Positions 4,516-60,576 of a DNA stretch of 64,000 nucleotides are shown one piece after another. The notes beneath the pieces were generated by a model. That model saw nothing but the letters and a program-made list of their open reading frames with translations, was not told the DNA's origin and made no database searches. Position numbers and translations under genes: made by a program. Position 1 is the stretch's first letter. Each line of letters opens with the position of its first letter. The DNA is taken from NCBI RefSeq assembly GCF_009730915.1, contig NC_052475.1, positions 30,751,016 through 30,815,015 on the forward strand, in the 5' to 3' direction. This DNA is from Dioscorea cayenensis subsp. rotundata. Taxonomy: Eukaryota; Streptophyta; Magnoliopsida; Dioscoreales; Dioscoreaceae.

Positions 4516-7193
4516 CACTACACCAAATTTTAGTTTTAGAAGCACTTTAATAGAGGGGGTTTTTAGAACCCCCTACATAATTATGTTATATATATATTTT
4601 TAAATAAATTACAGCCGGTTTTAAAAACCCCCACAAATTAAAAACAAAAACTCTCTCTCTCCACTCACTCTCACTCTCACTCACACCCACACCCGCACAC
4701 ACGCACACTCCTCTCTCTCTCTCGATCTCCAGCACTCACTCGCCCGATCTTCACCGATCTTCGCCGCATCGCCCGCACAGCCCGCATCGATGACCGCACC
4801 GCCGCACAGACCACATCGGCGATCGCCTCCGTCGGTGAGTTCTAAACCCCATGAGAGAGGCATTCTCATCTGAGAGATTTTTTTTAGGGTTTTTTCTCAA
4901 TTGGTATGTGGAGGTGGACGTTGTTTAATGTGGAGGTGGACGTTGTTGGGAGGAGGATGGTGGAAAGGAGGAGGAGGAGGAGGAGCAGGGGAGTTATGAG
5001 GATGGGAGACTTTTTGGAGGATGGTGTTGATGATGGTGTGGAAATTTGGGAGGAAGTGAATTAATAGAGGATCTTGATGTTTATTGGTTTATCTTTAATC
5101 AGTTATTAGTTTTACAATAATTGATTCAATAGTTTAGTTCCCTAATTTTTTTGAGACTCCTCTTGGCAGGGGGTTTTTGCTGTGAGTTCCATTGTTTGAT
5201 TCACTTCTATGTCATTAGTTTTGTTGCTTTCACTCTATGCAATTGTATCTCTGAGAGGATTTGTTTGGATAGCACTGGCATACCCTATATGTTCAAAATG
5301 GTTTTTTGATTAGGTAATTCTTTGGAAGATTGATCCTGATATGTTTGTAAGCATTCACAGTTTCTCTAGGACTTTTACATGGACCTGCTTCTTTGTTGAA
5401 AAGGGCATTTTTTAGTAACTTTGTGAGGCAAAAGGGTATATGGTTCAGAACTAGGATATAAGATTATGTACTATACATATCAATCTTTCTTTTGTATTTC
5501 CATGAAAGTTGCTTTCTAATGCCTTTGGAACATCTCTCTCTCTTCTTATTATTCTTTTGATTTGCATGACCAAAAAATATGAGCAGGGATGGGGTGACCT
5601 TGCTTAAAAGGAATTCAAGATTTCTAATGAATATATATGTAGTCCCTTGCAAGAAAAAGAGTGTATTTCCTGAAGATTCCAAACTGCATATTGTGATTCT
5701 TTAAAATTTTTGCAACTTTTGAGTTCTCTTCATGTTTTTAACATTGCATGCATTTGAAATTTGCCATGAGATATCTAAAAACATGTATATAAATGTAGAG
5801 GCTGAGTCTTATTTTTACTTTATTTTAAAAAGTCATTTAGAACTGAAGCTTTGAAGCATCATCTATTAAATATTATATGTTAGCATAGTTTTTGTGGGCT
5901 GAGTAAATTCTGACCTTGGAGTATAATTGGTATTTATATCTATCTTAATTATTACTTCTCACATTTTCCTGTTCCATTCTGTTTTCTGCAGACAATCTTC
6001 TTCCTCTGGTTTGCTTTATCTGGGTGGTTGTTTAGGTTCTTTATTTTAGCAACATGGATACTGCCATTTCTCGCTCCTTTACTTATTGGAACATTTGCCA
6101 ACTGACTTTTGCTATTGAGGGTGCACTTTGTTTTTCTCGCTATTTCAATTTCTAATTTTCTGCAAGCAATCAAAGTTAGTAGATCAGTAGTGTAGGCATA
6201 TAAGCTTGCATATCTATTTGTGGTTATGAATCTTAGATGTTAAAAAAGATACCGAGCGCAATCCTTGCCAGATGACTTTTATCTTTCTCCTACTTATCAT
6301 ATGTTTTTGTTTCGCTCCTTATACTTTGTCCAAAGTCTTGATGTTAAGAGATTGTTTCATAAATATTAATGTATTGGTGGTTAAGTACTTATGTATTTGA
6401 TCTGATGCATAAAATATCTTTCTATTAAATCCTCACAACCTATTCAAAATTCATAATTGCTCATGGGTTTGGAGTTTATTAATATTAATGTATTGGTAGT
6501 TAAATACTTCATAATCTAATTGATGCATAAAATGCATTTCTACTAGATCCTTGCAGGCTATTCAAAATTCATAATTGTCCTTGGGTTTGAGTTTATGCAT
6601 ATGCATGGTTGATTTGGTCACTTGTGCTGGCATTGTTGTTTTGGGAAGTTAACCAAGGTTATTTTTGGATTTAGGTAAGAAATTTAGTGGTTTTTTGAGA
6701 TGTATTTCTAAAAAAATGTTGGTTGGATTGGTTTGTGAAAAAAACAGTAAATAATTTTTATTATTTATTTTTAGCTACCATTAGAATGTGGTAAAACACA
6801 TTTAGAGTGCGATCTTTAAAATAAAAAAAATGGATGTAAACACCTGAATTTTGATTATAGGCTATATAACTGCAGGTAGAAATTGAACAATTTTAATATC
6901 TATGTATATTATTAATATTTACATAATTGGGGCTTTATTTTATTTTAATTTATTTAAGAGATTGATGATGATATTAATCCAATTTAACTTGATGATAATT
7001 TTACCCATTTGATATTACGAGATTGAAATAGCCTACTCCCCCAACAAAAGAATTCACACTCACATGATCTTGAATTATACTGACTAAACAACAAATGATC
7101 TACAAATCAATCAAAGCCTAGAAGCCAATAATAATATACCAGATATTAAATCCCAAAAAATCACTTTTTAAAAAAAAAATTAAAAAAGGAGTA

Positions 7194-49129: not shown

Positions 49130-49755
49130 TCTTAGTTTATTGATGTGATTGCTAGAGGGTCTTTTCAGATTTTTATGATTCCTCTTTATTTTATCAAAAA
49201 TTTGAATTTCTTTTGCAAGGAGTTGTAAGGTTAAAAATGCGAATGTAGTTTATACATTAGGGTTGTGTGGATAGGCTGAGAATTTATCGTCCAACCCATA
49301 TACTTTCAGTCGGGGATGAGGGGCTTGTGCTGTAAACCCACATCCACAATTGGCAACATGTTACTATTATTGCTTCTAATGAATTTTGAACTTATGATCT
49401 TTTGAATGTCTCACTCTCGTTTTCCGCAATGAGGTCAACCCTTTGGTGTAGTTTGGTTTTTATATTACACATAAGTTTTTTTTTTAATATTCTTCAATAG
49501 TCTTTGCCTTCTAATCCTTTCTCAATATTGCTACCATTTTCTTTATAAATAAAGAACTCTCTTTTAAGAACAATATATATTATTAAATAAATTTCAATAC
49601 ATTATTAATAAAAAAAACCCAACAATAACAACTTTTTCTTAGTTGTAGCGCATGTTCCTGTGTGGATGCATATTTGCAATCCAATTTCCATGTCACTGGG
49701 TGAGTGCGTTCAGATTTGATTAATTCACATCTTTATCCACGTGTCTTTAATTAAC
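48831..49755. other. Intergenic DNA up to the large CACTA element
   Basis: No gene supported. A (TA)n tract lies at about 49097-49127. A minus-strand segment at 49210-49450 has weak tRNA-like A and B boxes (TGACCTCATTGCGG and AAGTTCAAAATTC) and may be an old SINE. Confidence 0.35.
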
Positions 49756-49784
49756 CACTACAAGAAAAACAGGTAATATAAACT

Positions 49785-50410
49785 GATGTTAGCACGGATT
49801 TTGTCACGGAAATATAACCGTGCCTATAGCATGCGTGACAAATATAATTTGTCACGGAATAGTAAAACCGTGCCAAATTTTGTCACGCTTTAACTAAACC
49901 GTGCCAATTTTGTCACGCTTTTTAGAGCCGATTTTTAGTACTTATTTTTGCACAGTTTTTGTTTTGTCACGATTTTTAGGCACGGTTTGTTGTCACTATT
50001 TTTGCATGACGATTTTATTTGTCACATTTCTTGGCACGGTGTTTTGTCACAGTTTTTGGCACGATTGTGTTTTGGCACGATTGTGTTTTGGCACGGTTTT
50101 TGGCACGATTTAGTTGATCACGATTTTTAGCAGCGGTTTTATGTTGTCACGGTATTTATTCTGATTTATTTGAGTACCATTTTTGTCACGGTTTTTGCTT
50201 TTGTCACTCTTTTTTATCACGGTTTATCAGTCAATTTTATCACGGTTTTTGGCACAAAGACAATTTTTGGCACATTTTTTGTCATGATTTTTGGCACAGT
50301 ATTAAATATAATATAGTTGTTAGTACATTTTTATCGCGTTTTTAGAGCACGCGTTTTAAATTTAGTAAGGATATTGGCATGGTTTTTGTCACGAAATTTG
50401 GAACAATTTT
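49785..50410. repeat. Left subterminal repeat array of the 8.2-kb CACTA element
   Basis: Degenerate repeats of TTTGTCACGG and TTTTTGGCACGGTTTT recur every 10-30 bp through about 600 bp. They are T-rich on the plus strand and match the complement of the right-arm motifs. Confidence 0.8.
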
Positions 50411-50563
50411 CTTTAAAAAATTTATAAATGGATTTATTTAATAATAAAACCTGTATTTAATTTCATCAAAATATATATTGCCATATTTGTAAAATAAGTA
50501 AAATTGTTATTACACTCATAGCATGACAATAATAAGGCCCAATCTACATAAATCCACAAAACT

Positions 50564-53500
50564 CTAAACGTAAACCATGTATATTATCACTCTGTTATGA
50601 CTCCCAATGGCTACCTCATTCCATAATTCGTCTTGGTTAATAGAATTCTCATTCACCCCTTGACTGCATTTATCTACTAGTGCTTTGTCAAATTCCTCCT
50701 GCATCCATTAAAAAATAAACATATTATTAAATGATAGTGAGTTAAATTGGCTAATTAATTTGAGTTTATAAAACCAATTCTCAAATATTAAATAAAACTA
50801 AATAAATATTAAAGGTTTTCATACATTAGCTGACTTTCCTAGGTTTTCATACCATTAATGTCCATTGAACAGACCTTTCCTAAAAAACCACTCTCATTAA
50901 TAACATAAATTTAATCAATGACTTTCTTTACAAAGAACATGAAATGCATTCCCATAATTGAAAGTAGTATAATATTTGGACTAATTAAATAAATAAATAA
51001 ATAAATAAAAACAAATGAGATAACGAACACAAGTGGCATCTAAATTTAATATGCATTCTATGGCATCTAAAAGAATGTACAGCAAATCATGAATTGGATA
51101 TATAAAGCTAGAATACGAGCTCATGTTAAAACAAAGTTCAATTTTAACTTATATATTCAAATCCTATTTGATAAATCATCAAATTAACATTTGAGGAGTC
51201 ATACTTCTGCTATCAACCATCAGAATTAAATCTAATGACCCAAGAAATAATTGAACCTTATCAAGTCTTGGACAGATATATTGATGAAGGAATAATAAAA
51301 AATAAGCTCAGCTAGAATTCAAGTACATTTAACTCAAAGAAATAGAATGAGGAAACTTCAAATAGAATCCTGGAAAACTGATATATATAAGAAGATTGAC
51401 CTCTAAAAAAAACCATCAAATCACATCTCATAATATACAATTAATTTCAATGAGATAACATAATGTGCAGACAAGATAATGTAAGCAAATTTCAATACAT
51501 GAAATCAATGTTAGTGGCTCTCTAGCATTTCAATACTAGTGGCTTTTTTCCTGTATGACTCCATGATGCTAATGATACTACTACTACTAATAATAATAAC
51601 TACCATGATGCTTTTTTTCCTGTATGACTAGTGGCTCTCTAACATTTCAAATTTCAATAAATGAAATCAATGTTAGTATAGTATTTTTATTTTTTATTTT
51701 ATTCCAACCATGTCCAAGTGCAGTGCATATTTAGATTTAAAAGACACATTGAACAAACACAATAATGCACACACATACACAATCAAAAATGGAAAAGAAA
51801 GAGGGTGGGAGAAATGGGTGCTATTATGATTCAGATGGTGATTAGGGTGCAAAAGTGTTGATCCATTAATAAAATCATGAATAATGTTAACTAATTTGTC
51901 TCCATAAAGCATATGCACCATAAAGTATCACCAGTTAGTTTGTCTCCATCTTACGATCTCCCAATCATCTAGCACTGCTATATGCATCATTCAACCACCC
52001 AAAGAAATTACCAAAGTATCATTGTATTCCACTGGTTCTTACCAAGAATATTTATATATATATATATAAGAAATGTGATCTTGGCCAATGCCATCAAATG
52101 ATCAGATCATGGCTACAAACCGTATTGTACTAAAGCAGCTTAACAAAAGTTTGATGTTTTCAACAACAAAAAATGATTCTGTGATTTTTTCCTAAAAACA
52201 GAAAAAATAAATTAATCCACTTCTAGTGTTCTTTACATACATGTTTAACAAATGGAATACAATGGACTACCTTTCCAGCAAAGCTTTTTTCACCATCATT
52301 TCTCCTAAATGAAGTGCCTGCTTCCCTGAATAAAAGCCAGAAACAAAAAATAATTCGAACCACAGAACTCCAAAAAAATCTGAAATCTATAAAATAATTC
52401 CAAACAGCATAACTTCATGAAGGCTTCAGTGCAAACTAGTTATCAATGATTATCCGTCTCCAAACCATTTTTTTAAGATAAGTAGATGAAAATTCAAAAT
52501 TATAAGTATAGTACTCGATCATAAACCAAGTTATGACCCTCCATCAATAAAAAATATAAGAAGATTCAATTATGCCAAGGTACCCTGAATGACAGAAAAA
52601 CTGTTTAGCACCAAAGATTCCCCATCATAATAATACAACCCAGCCTGTTCCTCAAATACTTAGGACTTGGGCCCTGATAAAATAGCCCATATTTACACTA
52701 TAACTGACTATCAATTAAATATAAAAAACAAAGCCATAGAAACCATGGAAGGATTATTTATATCAAATTCACTGTATAGATATTCAGACAGTTTGCACTA
52801 CTAATGATCATTAGAAAACAACACAATCCATCAAAACTCAAAAAGTAATTGCAACACAGTGCCAATAGAATCAACAAAGTGATGAGCAAACTCTTTGATA
52901 GTACAGGATTTGGGTATGCATGTGTCAACAGACACGTGAGATATATCATAAACATTATGCTCCCTCTCAACAAATAGAGGAGTCATCAAAAGTCAAACAG
53001 ATATACTACACTGAAGGAAACAAAAGCTTCCTTCCAACATAATAATTTGAAAACATTAAAATCCTTCACAATCACAACAACACCATGCAATGTAAAGCAA
53101 AGTCATTAATGGAGCAGAGATGGACCTTACTTATTCAACTTCTAAGAATTAGCATATACAACATCTGATAGCCAAATCACTATGCAACTCTAACTTTTCA
53201 CCTAACTGAGATCAGAGATGTCTCAAAACTTGAACGTATTACAAACAAGTCATCCAAATAAGAGCTGGATAGGCAATTCTTCAGCCTGACAAGTAAAGCA
53301 TGCCAAGCATTGTTTGAAAACAATCCAGTACATTTGTTAGGCACTAAGTTATAATCAATTGCATTTTAAACCGCTCAGACATCTCAGTTGTATGTACATA
53401 CCTCCAAAACAAATTTCTTATAATGTTGATCATTAAAAAGATAGAAACCATGTTTACCAGTTAAGATACAGATACGTAAAAGAAAGAAAAAAATCACACT

Positions 53501-54493
53501 ATAAAAATAGGCATGAAGCAAAAATACCTTGGCTTGTTCCAATTAACCATCCTGTTGCTGGTGGAATAAGCAGCTGCCCTGTTTGCTGCATTAGCAGTGA
53601 TGGGAAACTGATTTCCTTGGAAGTGAGTCCTCCTCTTGGCAAGCACACCCTACGAATAGAAGTAACAAACGGTGATCATAAAGTTTAGGATATGTGACAT
53701 AGATCCATGTTGCAAATTTTAAGCAGACGAACAAGCAAAGACACCAACCTACCTGTCTAATAGATGATCTAGAGTCCATGAAAAAGGTGTTAACCTTTGA
53801 TATCAAATGCATAGTTTTACTGCTTAGGAAGTAACAAACCTCTCTAGGATAAGTATATCAAGCTTGTATTTTGGCTATTGGTTCAACAACCGATTTGCTT
53901 GATCTCTATTCTTCTTCGCCAAAGCTTTCTTGATCTTTCTCTTATGGGCCCTTATATCCCTGAAGCATAAGATGAAAAACAAACAAACAAAAATGTAAGC
54001 AATTTACTAAACACCATATAGCGAAGATCAAAAGAGACAAAACCAATAAACAGAAACAAAGAGAAGAGACTGATCACCTGAACTTTTCAATCAGGGGGTT
54101 ATGAGCCAGGAAGGTGATATCTTTCATATGATAATAGGTCTTGTGGTTTCCCTCGACCTTCTTCTTGGGCTCTCGAGGGAATATCCCCTTGAGAATACAT
54201 AGCTTCCTGCAAATCAGCAAAAATTGGCATAAAATCGGAGAAAACCAATACCTTTACTGCAAAACAAAAGTGAGAGAGGCACCTGAAGCTGGAGAGACTA
54301 GTCTGGAGGTAATGAACAGCCTTGGTCCTGGTGATGTACCAGGCCGCGTTCCCCTCCTTCTTTTTCCCCTGGAGAAAGAGAATGAACAGTGATTGGTTGT
54401 GGTTGATTGGAGATGGAGATGGAGATCGAGAGGGAGAGGGAAAAGGGAGAGGGGAGAGAAGAAGCTCACTGGAGGGCGTTAGTGCTTCGGCAT
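50564..54493 (-). pseudogene. Captured, chimeric exon chain beginning with pescadillo (PES1) exons
   Basis: The minus strand shows eight exon-like segments with GT-AG borders and compatible phases: 54493-54470, 54368-54283, 54206-54078, 53959-53840, 53819-53753, 53649-53528, 52325-52271, 50698-50564. The first four match the N-terminal part of plant pescadillo, a nucleolar factor for large-subunit ribosome assembly: MPKH start, [55 protein letters not shown]. Codon 5 is TAA where relatives have Tyr, and the fourth exon contains TAG after LLNQ, so the pescadillo frame is broken twice. Exons 5-7 are not recognised (RRTHFQGNQFPITANAANRA). The last encodes DELWNEVAIGSHNRV, loosely like the C-terminal end of CACTA transposase-associated proteins. 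About 240 bp of GC-rich leader precede the ATG. Expression is unknown. Confidence 0.8.
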
Positions 54494-55319
54494 GCCGACA
54501 ACCGCTCGAGAGGATCCAAGACGGAGGAGAAGAATGGAGAGCTTGGCGAGGCGGCAGTGACCATGAGATGAGCAAGGGTCTAATAGGGATGTCGTCGTCG
54601 GCGCCGGCTGTGGCTTCGCCGGCAACGGTAACGCCGAAGGAGGTGCTGAGGGAGAAGATCGCTGGGGTTGGAGCACGAGGCGGCGAGGTTTGATCTTAGG
54701 GCTGGGGCTGAGGGAGAGGATCGCTAGGGTTTTCCGTTGTATTATTTTTGTTCACATGTAAAGCAGTTGGTAATTTTGTAAATAAACCAGAATTTAATAC
54801 AGTTTCTTTTAAGGAAATAATATTACAAAAATTCAAAATGCAACATTCAACCCTAGGGCAAAATTTTAAAAAACATATAATTTTTTCTAATATTATTCAA
54901 AAAAAATTATTTCCAAATTTAGGAAAATCTAAGAAAATCTGTAATTAATTTTTTAAAAAAATAAGCCACTTAGGTTTTTGTGATATATACACTTTTTTAC
55001 ACATGCATGCATACATGATATAACATAAAATTTATTTAAGTATTTAGAGTGGAATAACATTGTGAGAAAAACTTCACAACAGAAGTTAATGGTGTATTAA
55101 TGATATAATTTAAATCATAACAATTTCCGCTCGGAAGCAATAATAAAATTTATCAATATTAATAAAATTTAATAAATTTAACATTGAATATTGTAGAGAA
55201 GAAAAATTTTGTGAAAATATCTAAAAGAACCTTTCACATATATACCCTTTTAAAAAATTTTAAATTTAAATATAAATAAGAATAATAATACTTAAATAAA
55301 ATATTAATTTTTAGATCCT

Positions 55320-55525
55320 TTTTTAGTCCCTTTCTATTAGAAACGGATTAGAAACGGATATTTTTAATATTTAAATAAATTATATTTTAAATTGCCGTTT
55401 GTAAGCCGTTGTTATTTAGATTATATTTAAAACGATTGTTGGTCCATTGTTAATCGGTTGTAAGTAGAAACGAAATAAATTCCGTTTGTAATATTCCGTT
55501 TTTAAACAATAACTTTCTTGTAGTG
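55320..55525. mobile_element. Unpaired second CACTA-type terminus nested in the large element
   Basis: The segment ends ACTTTCTTGTAGTG at 55525, the form of a right CACTA end, and is preceded by subterminal-like repeats AGAAACGGA, CCGTTTGTAA, CCGTTTTTAA. No matching left end is visible in the window, so it is a fragment or its partner is in the gap. Confidence 0.5.
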
Positions 55526-55737
55526 TTCAAGGTCTTTTAAGCACTGAATTAATGTCAACAAAACTTACTAATATAGCTCACACGTTGCCATTATTTTCAT
55601 CGTGTTAAAAAGAAATAATCAAAAGAATAATTAAGGGGAAAAAAAGGCGGGGAATAAAGACCAAGCGAGAGGACCCTAATTTAATTGCCATGATCGATCC
55701 AAAAAGAATGAAAAAGCCTTAAATTATTATTACTATT

Positions 55738-56737
55738 NNNNNNNNNNNNNNNNNNNNNNNNNNNNNNNNNNNNNNNNNNNNNNNNNNNNNNNNNNNNNNN
55801 NNNNNNNNNNNNNNNNNNNNNNNNNNNNNNNNNNNNNNNNNNNNNNNNNNNNNNNNNNNNNNNNNNNNNNNNNNNNNNNNNNNNNNNNNNNNNNNNNNNN
55901 NNNNNNNNNNNNNNNNNNNNNNNNNNNNNNNNNNNNNNNNNNNNNNNNNNNNNNNNNNNNNNNNNNNNNNNNNNNNNNNNNNNNNNNNNNNNNNNNNNNN
56001 NNNNNNNNNNNNNNNNNNNNNNNNNNNNNNNNNNNNNNNNNNNNNNNNNNNNNNNNNNNNNNNNNNNNNNNNNNNNNNNNNNNNNNNNNNNNNNNNNNNN
56101 NNNNNNNNNNNNNNNNNNNNNNNNNNNNNNNNNNNNNNNNNNNNNNNNNNNNNNNNNNNNNNNNNNNNNNNNNNNNNNNNNNNNNNNNNNNNNNNNNNNN
56201 NNNNNNNNNNNNNNNNNNNNNNNNNNNNNNNNNNNNNNNNNNNNNNNNNNNNNNNNNNNNNNNNNNNNNNNNNNNNNNNNNNNNNNNNNNNNNNNNNNNN
56301 NNNNNNNNNNNNNNNNNNNNNNNNNNNNNNNNNNNNNNNNNNNNNNNNNNNNNNNNNNNNNNNNNNNNNNNNNNNNNNNNNNNNNNNNNNNNNNNNNNNN
56401 NNNNNNNNNNNNNNNNNNNNNNNNNNNNNNNNNNNNNNNNNNNNNNNNNNNNNNNNNNNNNNNNNNNNNNNNNNNNNNNNNNNNNNNNNNNNNNNNNNNN
56501 NNNNNNNNNNNNNNNNNNNNNNNNNNNNNNNNNNNNNNNNNNNNNNNNNNNNNNNNNNNNNNNNNNNNNNNNNNNNNNNNNNNNNNNNNNNNNNNNNNNN
56601 NNNNNNNNNNNNNNNNNNNNNNNNNNNNNNNNNNNNNNNNNNNNNNNNNNNNNNNNNNNNNNNNNNNNNNNNNNNNNNNNNNNNNNNNNNNNNNNNNNNN
56701 NNNNNNNNNNNNNNNNNNNNNNNNNNNNNNNNNNNNN
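55738..56737. other. Assembly gap of 1000 N
   Basis: Exactly 1000 consecutive N. A round number suggests a placeholder, so the true size is unknown. It lies in the large CACTA element next to the right subterminal array, where repeats would hinder assembly. Confidence 1.
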
Positions 56738-57925
56738 GGCATTGGCCAACCCTAAACCGAGCCAAACACCGCGCCAAATACCACGGAGCTTCCATCGTCA
56801 CGCGCTGGCACGCCTTTAGGGTCGATCTACGCCAAAAACGCGACAGCAGACGATGATGAGTCGTATGAGCTGTACCGGCCAACCCTAAACCGCCAAAACC
56901 GCCGCCAAATATCACGGACTCCATCTGTCACGGTTTTCTGGCATGGCTAGCTGATCGCGCCAAAAACCGCGATAAAACGAATGATGATGTAGCGTTAGTC
57001 ACTTTTGGCGCACGGCTAGGGTCGATCGCTACAAAACCGCTGTCAAATACCACGGATTCTATTAGTTAGTGTTTTTGTCGCGCTTAGGCCGATCACGCCA
57101 AAAACCGCGATAACAACGATATAGCGAGTTACGCTGCTCGCACGGCCAACCCTAAATCGCGCTAAAATCGCGACAACAAATGAGCATGAAAGTTTGACCA
57201 GGCGACGGCTCAACCCTAAACCTTGCCAAAAACCGCGCTAAAGATCATGCGATTCTATTGTCACGGTTTGTCTACGCTAGTAGCTTTCGATCATGCCAAA
57301 AACCGCGACAAATAAAGGTATATGTTTGTCACGAGCAGATTTGGCACCGAAAACCAAAAACCGCGCAAATACCATCGGACTCCATCAGTACTTGCTGCAC
57401 CCGCTTAAGCTCGATCGAAAAACCTCGACAAATAAATGCATGACGCGTTTGTTTACGGGTAGTTTGAGACGGCCAATCCCCTAAACCGCGCCAAAACCGC
57501 GCTTAAATGCCACGGATTCTATCATTACGTTTTTGACATGCTAGTAGTAATCAGTGCCAAAAACCGCGACAAATAGCGCGATTATACGTTTGTCACGGTT
57601 TTTGTCACGGCTTAGGCCGATTGTGCTAAAAACCGCTCCAAAAAGCCATGGACCCATTGCTATGGTTTTGGGACCGCTTTAGGGATCGTTCGCGCCAAAC
57701 ATCGCGATAAATGTGTTTGTCACTAGTTGTTAGCACGGTTTTTTTGTCTAAATTTTAGACTGAAAAACATAAATGGTGCTAAATATCAGGATAAAATTGT
57801 CACGATTTAGTAATCGCGCTAAATACCGCGACAACATTGTCACTAAATTTTGTTTCGCGCCAATTTTCAGGATAAATTTGGCACGGAATCAAAACCGTGC
57901 CAAATAGATCGTGCCAAATTCCTGT
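56738..57925. repeat. Right subterminal repeat array of the 8.2-kb CACTA element
   Basis: Many degenerate copies of GCCAAAAACCGCGACAAA, AATACCACGGA and CCAACCCTAAACCG recur through about 1.2 kb. The array is GC-richer than the left arm and continues into the gap. Confidence 0.8.
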
Positions 57926-58271
57926 TTTTCTTGTAGTGAACTCATGCCCTTGTCAAGGAAAAATCATCATATGTTATCAAGGTGAGAAATTGATTGGTTT
58001 TCCAAAGCTTTTAAATTAAAACAAGGGTGAAGATCCATAAACAATATAAAGATAATGAATATATGAACTGTGATCCAATTTATACATCAATCCAAATAAG
58101 TAATAACTCTTTATGGTTTATCAATTTTTTTTTAAATCATTTGACTATTACAGTTCTTCCTTCCTTTGCTATATTTTTATGTAAATAAAAAAGTACATGT
58201 GTGCGTTTTCATGTTCACACATCCCGTGAGGAGGTTGTTGTGAGAAAATGCAAATCACAGTATCATAAAAC

Positions 58272-58851
58272 CAAGGTTGTCAGACCCGGCTCGGACAATG
58301 ACCCGGCTAAGCGCAAGAGTCAGGGGTCAATGGGTTCAACCGGATCGAACCAGGGTTGAACAGATGTCAATAATAAAATATAAAAAATATTATAATAATT
58401 AATAATTAGTAAATATAATATTAAAGCTATAATTATAATATAAAAAACTACTCAAATTTGATATTTAAATTGATAAATGACCTTATATACAGTAGTGTTT
58501 TCTAATTATGTCATTTATTTTTACTTTTTTTTAAATATTTGCAAATTTAATATATTAATATATAATTATCGAACTTCTCTCGGCATTATTTATTTATTTG
58601 TTTGTGTATTGGTTGATTTTGTTAAAATAAATAAGAAATTTAATTCACTAATTCTTATATCTCAATTGAGTTTTTATTTCGTTTAAATTCTTATATTTTT
58701 TATTTAATTAGAATACTTTATTTTTATATTTTATAATAAAGTAACACTCATTTATTGTTTTATTTTTTTAATAAATTTAAATTTTAGAAAGTATGTACAT
58801 AACAAATTAATAGATTTTATTTTTAAATATTAATTTTTGTTGGTATGTTTA

Positions 58852-58910
<59 letters not shown>

Positions 58911-59202
58911 AATTCTATTTATTGATTATAAATTATAAATTAATATTAATACATATACACGATTTTGTTGTTTTTAATGAGAAAATAATAATAAATTATT
59001 AAATATTGTAAAAAAAAATTTAAACATTGTGACCCGATTGACCCGGCCGGGTCAACCGGTTCCCGGTTGAACCCCTGGGTCACCGGGTTAACACCGGGTT
59101 TTTTCATACCCAGTTCAATAAGATATACCAAGGCCGGTCACATGGCCGATTCTCAATTTTTTTGGTTGAACTAATTGGACTAATCCGGGTCTGACAACCT
59201 TG
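58272..59202. mobile_element. hAT-like non-autonomous element, 931 bp
   Basis: Ends CAAGGTTGTCAGACCCGG and CCGGGTCTGACAACCTTG are exact inverted repeats. Flanking octamers CATAAAAC (58264-58271) and CAAAAAAC (59203-59210) differ at one base, as for an 8-bp hAT duplication. Subterminal CCGG-rich segments (GGTTCAACCGG, CCCGGCCGGGTCAACCGG) are complementary. The centre is AT-rich with a (TA)n tract at about 58855-58907. No transposase. Confidence 0.75.
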
Positions 59203-59493
59203 CAAAAAACGTAGCATGATCCCTTTGCACAAAACAGAAAGCAATAAGAACCTATAAATATATATCTGACCTTATTTGAAAAGTGCAAGAATTTTCAAAC
59301 CAGCAGTAATGAAGTATGGTTGTCCTAATCAAAAGTGGTTGTACGTAGAATCGTCCTAATTTCTTATATATATATATAGATTACGAAACATAAGCCAGCC
59401 ACGAATTTGTCCTATATATTTATTGCAGCCAGAGGAGGTTGTCATGTTATATATATCTTAACTTTATAGATCCAGTGAAACACTGCACGTTGG

Positions 59494-59648: not shown

Positions 59649-60576
59649 TTAATTATTTCGGAGTATATCATTCATGACCTCCCCAGCAATTTCATCTAGC
59701 AACCATGTTTCAGGTGACTGTAGTGGCAGTTGAGGTAGAGAGTCTGCAGACTTCTTCTCATATTGATTGATAGGCACAGACTTTGATGAGTCATTCTTCA
59801 TCCAGCCTTGAAGCAACCGAGATATGTTCTCAGTGCTTAATGCATAGGAATAGGATGGTGAGAATGGTGGTTTGGTGCAAGAGCATTGGACTGAGCTGGA
59901 TGGCTTCAAGCCAAGTGATAAAGCTTCGGAAAAAGCTCTTTTAGCCAGGTGGACATCTTTCTGCAGCGTCTTCTCCCACTGTCCTTTAGCAACGATGGCC
60001 TGATGGTCACCATAGTTGTGCAAGTTGCTCAACTTCTTCTTCAGATGAGTGTTCCAGTGGTTCTTGATGTCATTGTCTGTTCTCTGAGGGAGATGAGAAG
60101 CTATTGTTGCCCATCTACATTCATTCACTTTTATATATAATTAAATACTAGATATATCTACATATAAACCATGCCAATACTTAAAAAAAAAGTATTGTGA
60201 ACAAGAAGTAGAGATCACCTGTTACCAAGAAGAGCTTGGAGATGGATGATGAGCTTCTCTTCCTGATCAGTGAAGTTGCCTCTCTTGATTCCTGGCCTCA
60301 GATAATTAGTCCATCTCAGCCTACAGCTCTTGCTACATCTCAAAAGTCCTGATCAAATTAAATACAAAGATATACATACATCATGCATGCAAGAGTGTCT
60401 ATATATATATATATATGTACATACAAAGATATGCATGGATACGAACCAGTGTTTGGAGGAACAGCCCTCCAGTTGCAAGGTCCATGTTCTTGGATATAAG
60501 AAGCAAGAACTATGTCCTCTTCTGGAGTCCAAGGACCTTTCTTCACAATTTTGTCACACCGTGGTGGCCAGTCCAT
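59649..60576 (-). CDS. R2R3-MYB transcription factor, subgroup 1 (MYB60/MYB30/MYB96-type)
   Basis: Three exons (60576-60447, 60348-60219, 60114-59649) with the standard R2R3-MYB intron positions encode 241 residues. R2 (about 13-62) has tryptophans at 16, 36 and 56; R3 (about 65-115) has Phe69 in place of the first Trp, then W88 and W107. Downstream lies the subgroup motif [25 protein letters not shown] and a [12 protein letters not shown] segment, both features of subgroup 1, whose members control guard-cell opening, cuticular wax and stress responses. I judge MYB60-like most likely but do not fix it. The N terminus [16 protein letters not shown] deviates from the usual MGRPPCCDKxGVKKGPW: it lacks one residue and has substitutions. 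Confidence 0.95.

Follow-up and report, generated by a model that had tools for sequence, protein, structure and literature searches.

A CACTA element of Dioscorea cayenensis subsp. rotundata carrying pieces of a pescadillo gene and a forty-two-three/UIF-like gene, probably acquired in two steps

Ends and parts of the element

The stretch of 64,000 nucleotides analysed here (the window) is C5:30751016-30815015 of a 584 Mb assembly in 2249 contigs. It contains an element that spans positions 49756 to 57938, or 8183 bases with a gap of 1000 N counted in, and whose parts are collected in Table 1. The initial annotation had described a CACTA transposon with matched ends and an AAC duplication, and this description holds, since CACTACAAGAAA stands in inverted orientation at the two ends and AAC directly outside of both. 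Exact matches to CACTACAAGAAA occur three times in the window, the third one inside the element, as compared with a mean of 0.52 in shuffled sequence when one mismatch was allowed. The terminal inverted repeats beginning with CACTA, the 3-bp target-site duplications (AAC in the window, ATC, CTT and GGA in sister copies, and AAT in the related element L020) and the short direct and inverted subterminal repeats are all those of the CACTA (En/Spm) group. A relative with the same type of ends (family A in the following), L027, encodes a tnp2 transposase (PF02992, E 4.6e-79; PF13963, E 2.3e-17); in the window element itself, whose readable sequence is interrupted by the N gap, no tnp2-type transposase was found.

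Table 1 Parts of the element and its cargo, in window positions.
Feature	Position	Strand	Basis
Left 3-bp target-site duplication, AAC	49753-49755		same as 57939-57941
Family A left terminal inverted repeat, CACTACAAGAAA	49756-49767	+	sequence match
Family A left subterminal repeats, TTGTCACGG / TTGGCACGG units	49780-50420		repeat families D1-D4; common to L025-L028
Last exon (EEFDKALVDK...), belonging to family A itself, without its C-terminus	50564-50698	-	compared with L027
Remainder of family A left part, stops where the cargo begins	50585-51102	-	comparison with family A elements
Piece of another multi-copy repeat	51104-51381		same 278 bases within a longer repeat at C13, C11 and C14
Segment common to family B element L016 and L021 (C1:25.33 Mb)	51381-52002		sequence match
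Captured piece of forty-two-three/UIF-like gene	52028-53782	-	donor C5:21801747-21804172
Exon 6 (UIF-like)	52271-52325	-	alignment with donor
Exon 5 (UIF-like)	53528-53649	-	alignment with donor
Captured pescadillo piece, running from some 95 bases ahead of the ATG into intron 4	53777-54588	-	match to C8:2722489 onward
Pescadillo exon 4, stop at Q108	53840-53959	-	GT-AG borders, alignment
Pescadillo exon 3	54078-54206	-	GT-AG borders, alignment
Pescadillo exon 2	54283-54368	-	GT-AG borders, alignment
Pescadillo exon 1, stop at Y5	54470-54493	-	GT-AG borders, alignment
Sequence recurring roughly 0.8-1.2 kb away from right ends of family B	54589-54732		genome matches
Family B right end, own subterminal repeats (AACGGAT units)	55284-55525		sequence comparison
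Internal CACTACAAGAAA terminus, family B	55514-55525	-	exact match
DNA beside the family B end	55526-55737		among 321 matches listed, only in five composite copies
Assembly gap, 1000 N	55738-56737		covers a portion of the window copy
Family A right subterminal repeats, TTGTCACGG / TTGGCACGG-type	56738-57926		repeat comparison
Family A right terminal inverted repeat, CACTACAAGAAA	57927-57938	-	sequence match
Right 3-bp target-site duplication, AAC	57939-57941		same as 49753-49755

Two features go beyond what had been annotated, namely the N gap, which is absent from the other three complete copies of the element, and a third CACTA end that lies inside it. Position 55525 was considered as the true right end, but it is flanked by TTC where the left end has AAC, and its subterminal repeats are of another kind; it was rejected in favour of position 57938, which gives AAC. 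The internal terminus belongs to a second CACTA family (family B), whose right end recurs at dozens of places in the genome. The stretch 54589-54732 is probably native to family B as well, since it keeps a similar distance from other B right ends. For 55526-55737, on the outer side of the B terminus, no source outside the composite copies (those in which family A ends enclose family B DNA and the cargo) was seen among the matches listed.

The chain of exons had been drawn with a possibly transposase-derived last exon. An assignment of this exon to Transposase_24 finds no support in Pfam, where the exon alone gave no family at E up to 10, and we therefore name it merely native to family A. A deletion joint near 50585-50587 cuts its open stretch in the window to 44 aa, as compared with 173 aa in L027, and all four family A elements compared (L025-L028) have approximately 400 extra bases at this joint. 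Outside the element, about 1.7 kb from its right end, a putative R2R3-MYB gene was read by eye at 59690-60500 (minus strand), and a possible separate inverted-repeat element with the ends TTGTCAGACCCGG ... CCGGGTCTGACAA was likewise read by eye at about 58272-59205.

Captured gene pieces and their parents

As had been proposed, the pescadillo N-terminal exons lie in a row on one strand. Exons 1-4 all have GT-AG borders and together match PF06732 with an E of 4.2e-40. The two stops said to break the frame are in-frame at Y5 and Q108 (numbered after the pescadillo gene at C8), and the window copy lacks the open reading frame of a functional pescadillo. Over 54588-53777 it shows 92% identity to the C8 gene (L017), which begins at C8:2722489, bears introns and appears near full-length by its open stretches; its first 356 residues match PF06732 with an E of 4.4e-115, and it is open across the Pescadillo_N domain. 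A later exon (L017 ~6340-6420; C8:2725339-2725419) reads in two frames in the assembly, which may be due to an error in the assembly, a true lesion or an exon border read wrongly, and for this reason we call the C8 gene near full-length and not intact. The genome also contains two intronless pescadillo copies, L033 (C2141:1028-1573), with a frame open for 320 aa that is devoid of middle parts of the protein, and L034 (C17:1303096-1303652), with one stop and a run of N. Since the two have changes and an upstream stretch in common, they are probably one retrocopy that was later duplicated. The presence of the near full-length, intron-bearing C8 gene in the same genome makes the window pescadillo a captured copy, in agreement with the gene capture initially proposed; together with the intronless C2141 and C17 copies it rules out that the window holds the resident pescadillo gene of this genome.

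Exons 5 and 6, which had been listed as unrecognised, retain the intron borders of a donor gene on C5. This gene matches the cargo at 95-99% where scored, and the next loci outside of elements reach 50-51%. A Pfam search with exons 5-6 by themselves found nothing at E up to 10, and the joined donor protein of 159 aa was needed to obtain a match to PF07078 (forty-two-three = UIF), with an E of 1.4e-4 and 21.8 bits over residues 1-25 only. Because this score is barely above the curated cut-off of 21 bits, it is likely rather than certain that the donor gene is forty-two-three/UIF, an mRNA-export adaptor. We take the matching stretch of the protein to be UAP56-binding; a literature search with UIEF1, UAP56 and Arabidopsis gave no match. 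Of the eight segments initially counted in the chain, seven can thus be traced to a source (four to pescadillo, two to the UIF-like gene and one to family A). With fragments of host genes inside a non-autonomous element, and with the parents at C8 and C5, the element has the make-up of a Pack-CACTA.

Copies of the composite and a proposed history

A genome search with the region gave at least 57 matches, and the surroundings of ten and seven loci besides the window were compared. The cargo is present in at least five copies (window, C18, C9, C3 and C20) on several chromosomes. Four of these have both family A ends, and in all four the target-site duplications match and differ from copy to copy (AAC in the window, ATC in C18, CTT in C9, GGA in C3), so that the element was mobilised together with its cargo, as is characteristic of Pack-CACTA elements. 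An empty insertion site for the composites was not seen among the loci compared. The C20 copy has the cargo and the left end, the right end being absent within the sequence compared. A diverged locus, L018 (C3:543500-553499), has the joint between the pescadillo and UIF-like pieces at lower identity and one end, and L020 (C1459) has family A ends without cargo.

Over 53182-54588 the distance from the window is 1.7% for C3, 2.5% for C9 and 14.7% for L018, and it is 5.9% for C18 and 6.7% for C20, two copies with clustered short indels that may be assembly errors, so that their distances are possibly inflated and both these values and their splice-site counts are weakened. Clustered short insertions (such as GC, GCA and TC) that look like assembly errors in repeats were seen in the copies L009 and L014. 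A deletion of 52213-53181, which removes exon 6, is shared by C9, C3, C20 and L018 and absent from the window and C18; the presence in L018, at 14.7%, of a deletion found in the younger copies is not explained by a simple clock tree.

Locus L016 (C3:7.24 Mb) is a family B element with family B ends that carries the pescadillo piece without the UIF-like gene. The last base of its right terminus differs, and either TCT or CTC could be the duplication in its flanks. At the right side of this element (L016 2367-9692) there is an array of a subterminal unit of about 90 bases. The Y5 stop is present in L016 and in the five composites, and the Q108 stop is present in the five composites and absent from L016, which shows that the composite formed only after the pescadillo piece had been taken up and broken, and that it multiplied later. 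The internal family B end points to a two-step history, and we regard the element as a non-autonomous CACTA transposon of the Pack type whose cargo was captured in two steps, a reading to which we assign a probability of about 0.88.

In the history that we propose, a family B CACTA element would first have captured the 5' part of a pescadillo gene, and L016 is a surviving state with this piece and without the second gene. A piece of the UIF-like gene would then have entered between the pescadillo piece and its neighbour, intron joined to intron. The joint lies within introns of both genes and has three shared bases (TTC), such as end-joining or template switching could have left, and the UIF-like piece replaces about 1 kb relative to L016, which would suit filler DNA in the repair of a break. 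Presumably after this, the right part of the B element, including the terminus and a stretch of neighbouring DNA, would have come between family A ends, possibly through aberrant excision from neighbouring elements. A Pack-TYPE review proposes a route in which the ends of neighbouring elements are joined around chromosomal DNA (PMC13317346), and family A ends enclosing family B DNA would fit this model. Finally the composite would have moved as one unit to new sites, the transposase presumably being supplied in trans by family A elements such as L027.

A family B element may also have jumped into a family A element and later lost its left end, and no chromosomal stretch would then have been captured. 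The B right end with its own terminus inside an A element is what such a nested insertion would leave. We nevertheless consider it the less likely explanation, because 51104-51381 and 55526-55737, the DNA flanking the B part, have no match in L025-L028, a comparison that is weak in itself as it covers 10 kb of each element, with a run of N in L026, and because 51104-51381 belongs to another repeat. Since the DNA beside the B part is unlike these family A elements, we favour capture of a chromosomal stretch by family A ends.

Fate of the captured exons and relation to known capture systems

The initial annotation had the exons spliced in compatible phases. This is correct for exons 5, 6 and the last exon, which share one frame, but not for the joint between the two genes, where the pescadillo intron after exon 4 is of phase 2 and exon 5 begins in phase 0. 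Because the natural frames do not meet there, a transcript spliced as first drawn would frameshift at this joint; the proposed fusion to other exons is therefore right in that exons of different origin follow each other on one strand, and not in that they form a phase-compatible fusion. Splice borders were read by alignment column. From exon 1 to exon 5 all nine are intact in the window and in C3, eight in C9, and seven each in C18 and C20; among the aligned borders, L018 retains 3/7 and L016 6/7. The special preservation of splice sites that had been suggested is thus not supported. At a distance of 6.4% to the parent the chance that all 18 border bases survive in the absence of selection is approximately 0.30, so that their retention in the window needs no selection.

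Compared with the C8 gene, the window pescadillo exons have 11 synonymous, 5 amino-acid and 2 stop changes, and taken alone these unpolarised counts look like constraint. We polarised the substitutions with the two intronless pescadillo copies as outgroups, against a background of 73/357 synonymous sites, leaving out of the stem count site 6.3, where the two outgroups disagree, and site 31.3, where the captured copies disagree among themselves. Five of seven changes common to L016 and the composites are synonymous (P 0.005), the Y5 stop being among the rest. These changes may predate the capture, and they suggest that the direct donor was a working pescadillo copy already somewhat apart from the C8 gene. 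Among the changes private to L016, which postdate the Y5 stop, 6/11 are synonymous (P 0.013), and since all six are C-to-T or G-to-A, they could reasonably be put down to deamination at GC-rich third positions instead of selection. The changes of the composite stem and the window alone (2/6 synonymous, P 0.36) give no sign of constraint after the composite formed, on very few changes. As the pescadillo frame had already been lost when the copies spread, the cargo most likely travels as a passenger, and a product under selection from the chimeric chain appears unlikely.

Through small RNAs the cargo could target the pescadillo and UIF-like genes in trans. Of the words in the window copy, 193/848 21-mers and 150/845 24-mers recur in the corresponding stretch of the C8 gene, and 445/1831 21-mers in that of the UIF-like gene, with introns counted; however, recent capture alone accounts for these shared short words, much of them intron, and we consider such an action improbable. 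A broader scheme, which we rate lower still, would make the element a second-order vehicle, in which one CACTA family spreads the gene-carrying element of another, and chimeric RNAs spliced from the cargo would give rise to small RNAs directed at two host genes, of ribosome assembly and mRNA export. Also very unlikely is a functional chimeric gene, with a spliced transcript from the pescadillo side whose product, be it a protein or a regulatory non-coding RNA, is under selection: the borders intact in the window and C3, the frame common to exons 5, 6 and the last, the excess of synonymous changes that the pescadillo piece shows in L016 and prior to formation of the composite, and published CACTA captures that are spliced and transcribed (PMC1947982, PMC4290129) would speak for it, but they are set against two stops and the frameshift, the loss of exon 6 from C9, C3 and C20 and of borders from C9, C18 and C20, the border survival to be expected by chance, and a captured piece that extends merely some 95 bases upstream of the ATG.

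What the locus offers is a series within one genome, from the parents through the one-gene family B element and the two-gene composite in family A to its decaying sisters, which exposes the order and the joints of CACTA gene capture; it also presents a young captured copy in which retained splice borders can be explained without selection. The exact combination of exons, initially called undescribed, still appears to be so, and a search of the open-access literature pairing pescadillo with a CACTA element or transposon gave none; the wider claim does not stand, since multi-gene capture with chimeric splicing (PMC1947982) and capture at scale (PMC4290129) are published.

CACTA elements of Chenopodium likewise contain fragments of captured genes, two CACTA subtypes being present side by side in the genome, and the passages compared describe no cross-family nested capture (PMC8978399). 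Nor is it described in this form in the CACTA-capture literature compared, although the authors of the wheat 3B study, who found one captured gene in two CACTA families, infer recent exchange of DNA between families (PMC4290129). The wheat elements resemble ours in capture, which is on a large scale there, in exon shuffling, and in the same captured gene occurring in two families; they differ in that 13% of the captured genes were expressed with dN/dS below 0.4, whereas the composites show no such sign, on six changes. Pack-CACTA and Pack-TYPE elements (PMC8903248, PMC13317346; Catoni 2019 as cited in the review) have the same non-autonomous CACTA ends around captured gene DNA, but here the captured DNA already contained a gene-carrying element of another CACTA family. 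Soybean Tgm-Express1 (PMC1947982) is also a CACTA element with pieces of unrelated host genes in which exons and introns are kept with canonical internal splice borders. It carries five fragments and has proven chimeric transcripts, whereas two host genes are involved here, and the internal end of a second CACTA family is a feature of our composite, unlike Tgm-Express1. Transposons that capture genes in this way are known, with Tgm-Express1 and Pack-CACTA as the closest, and the element adds a further case to them; it is not a new gene.
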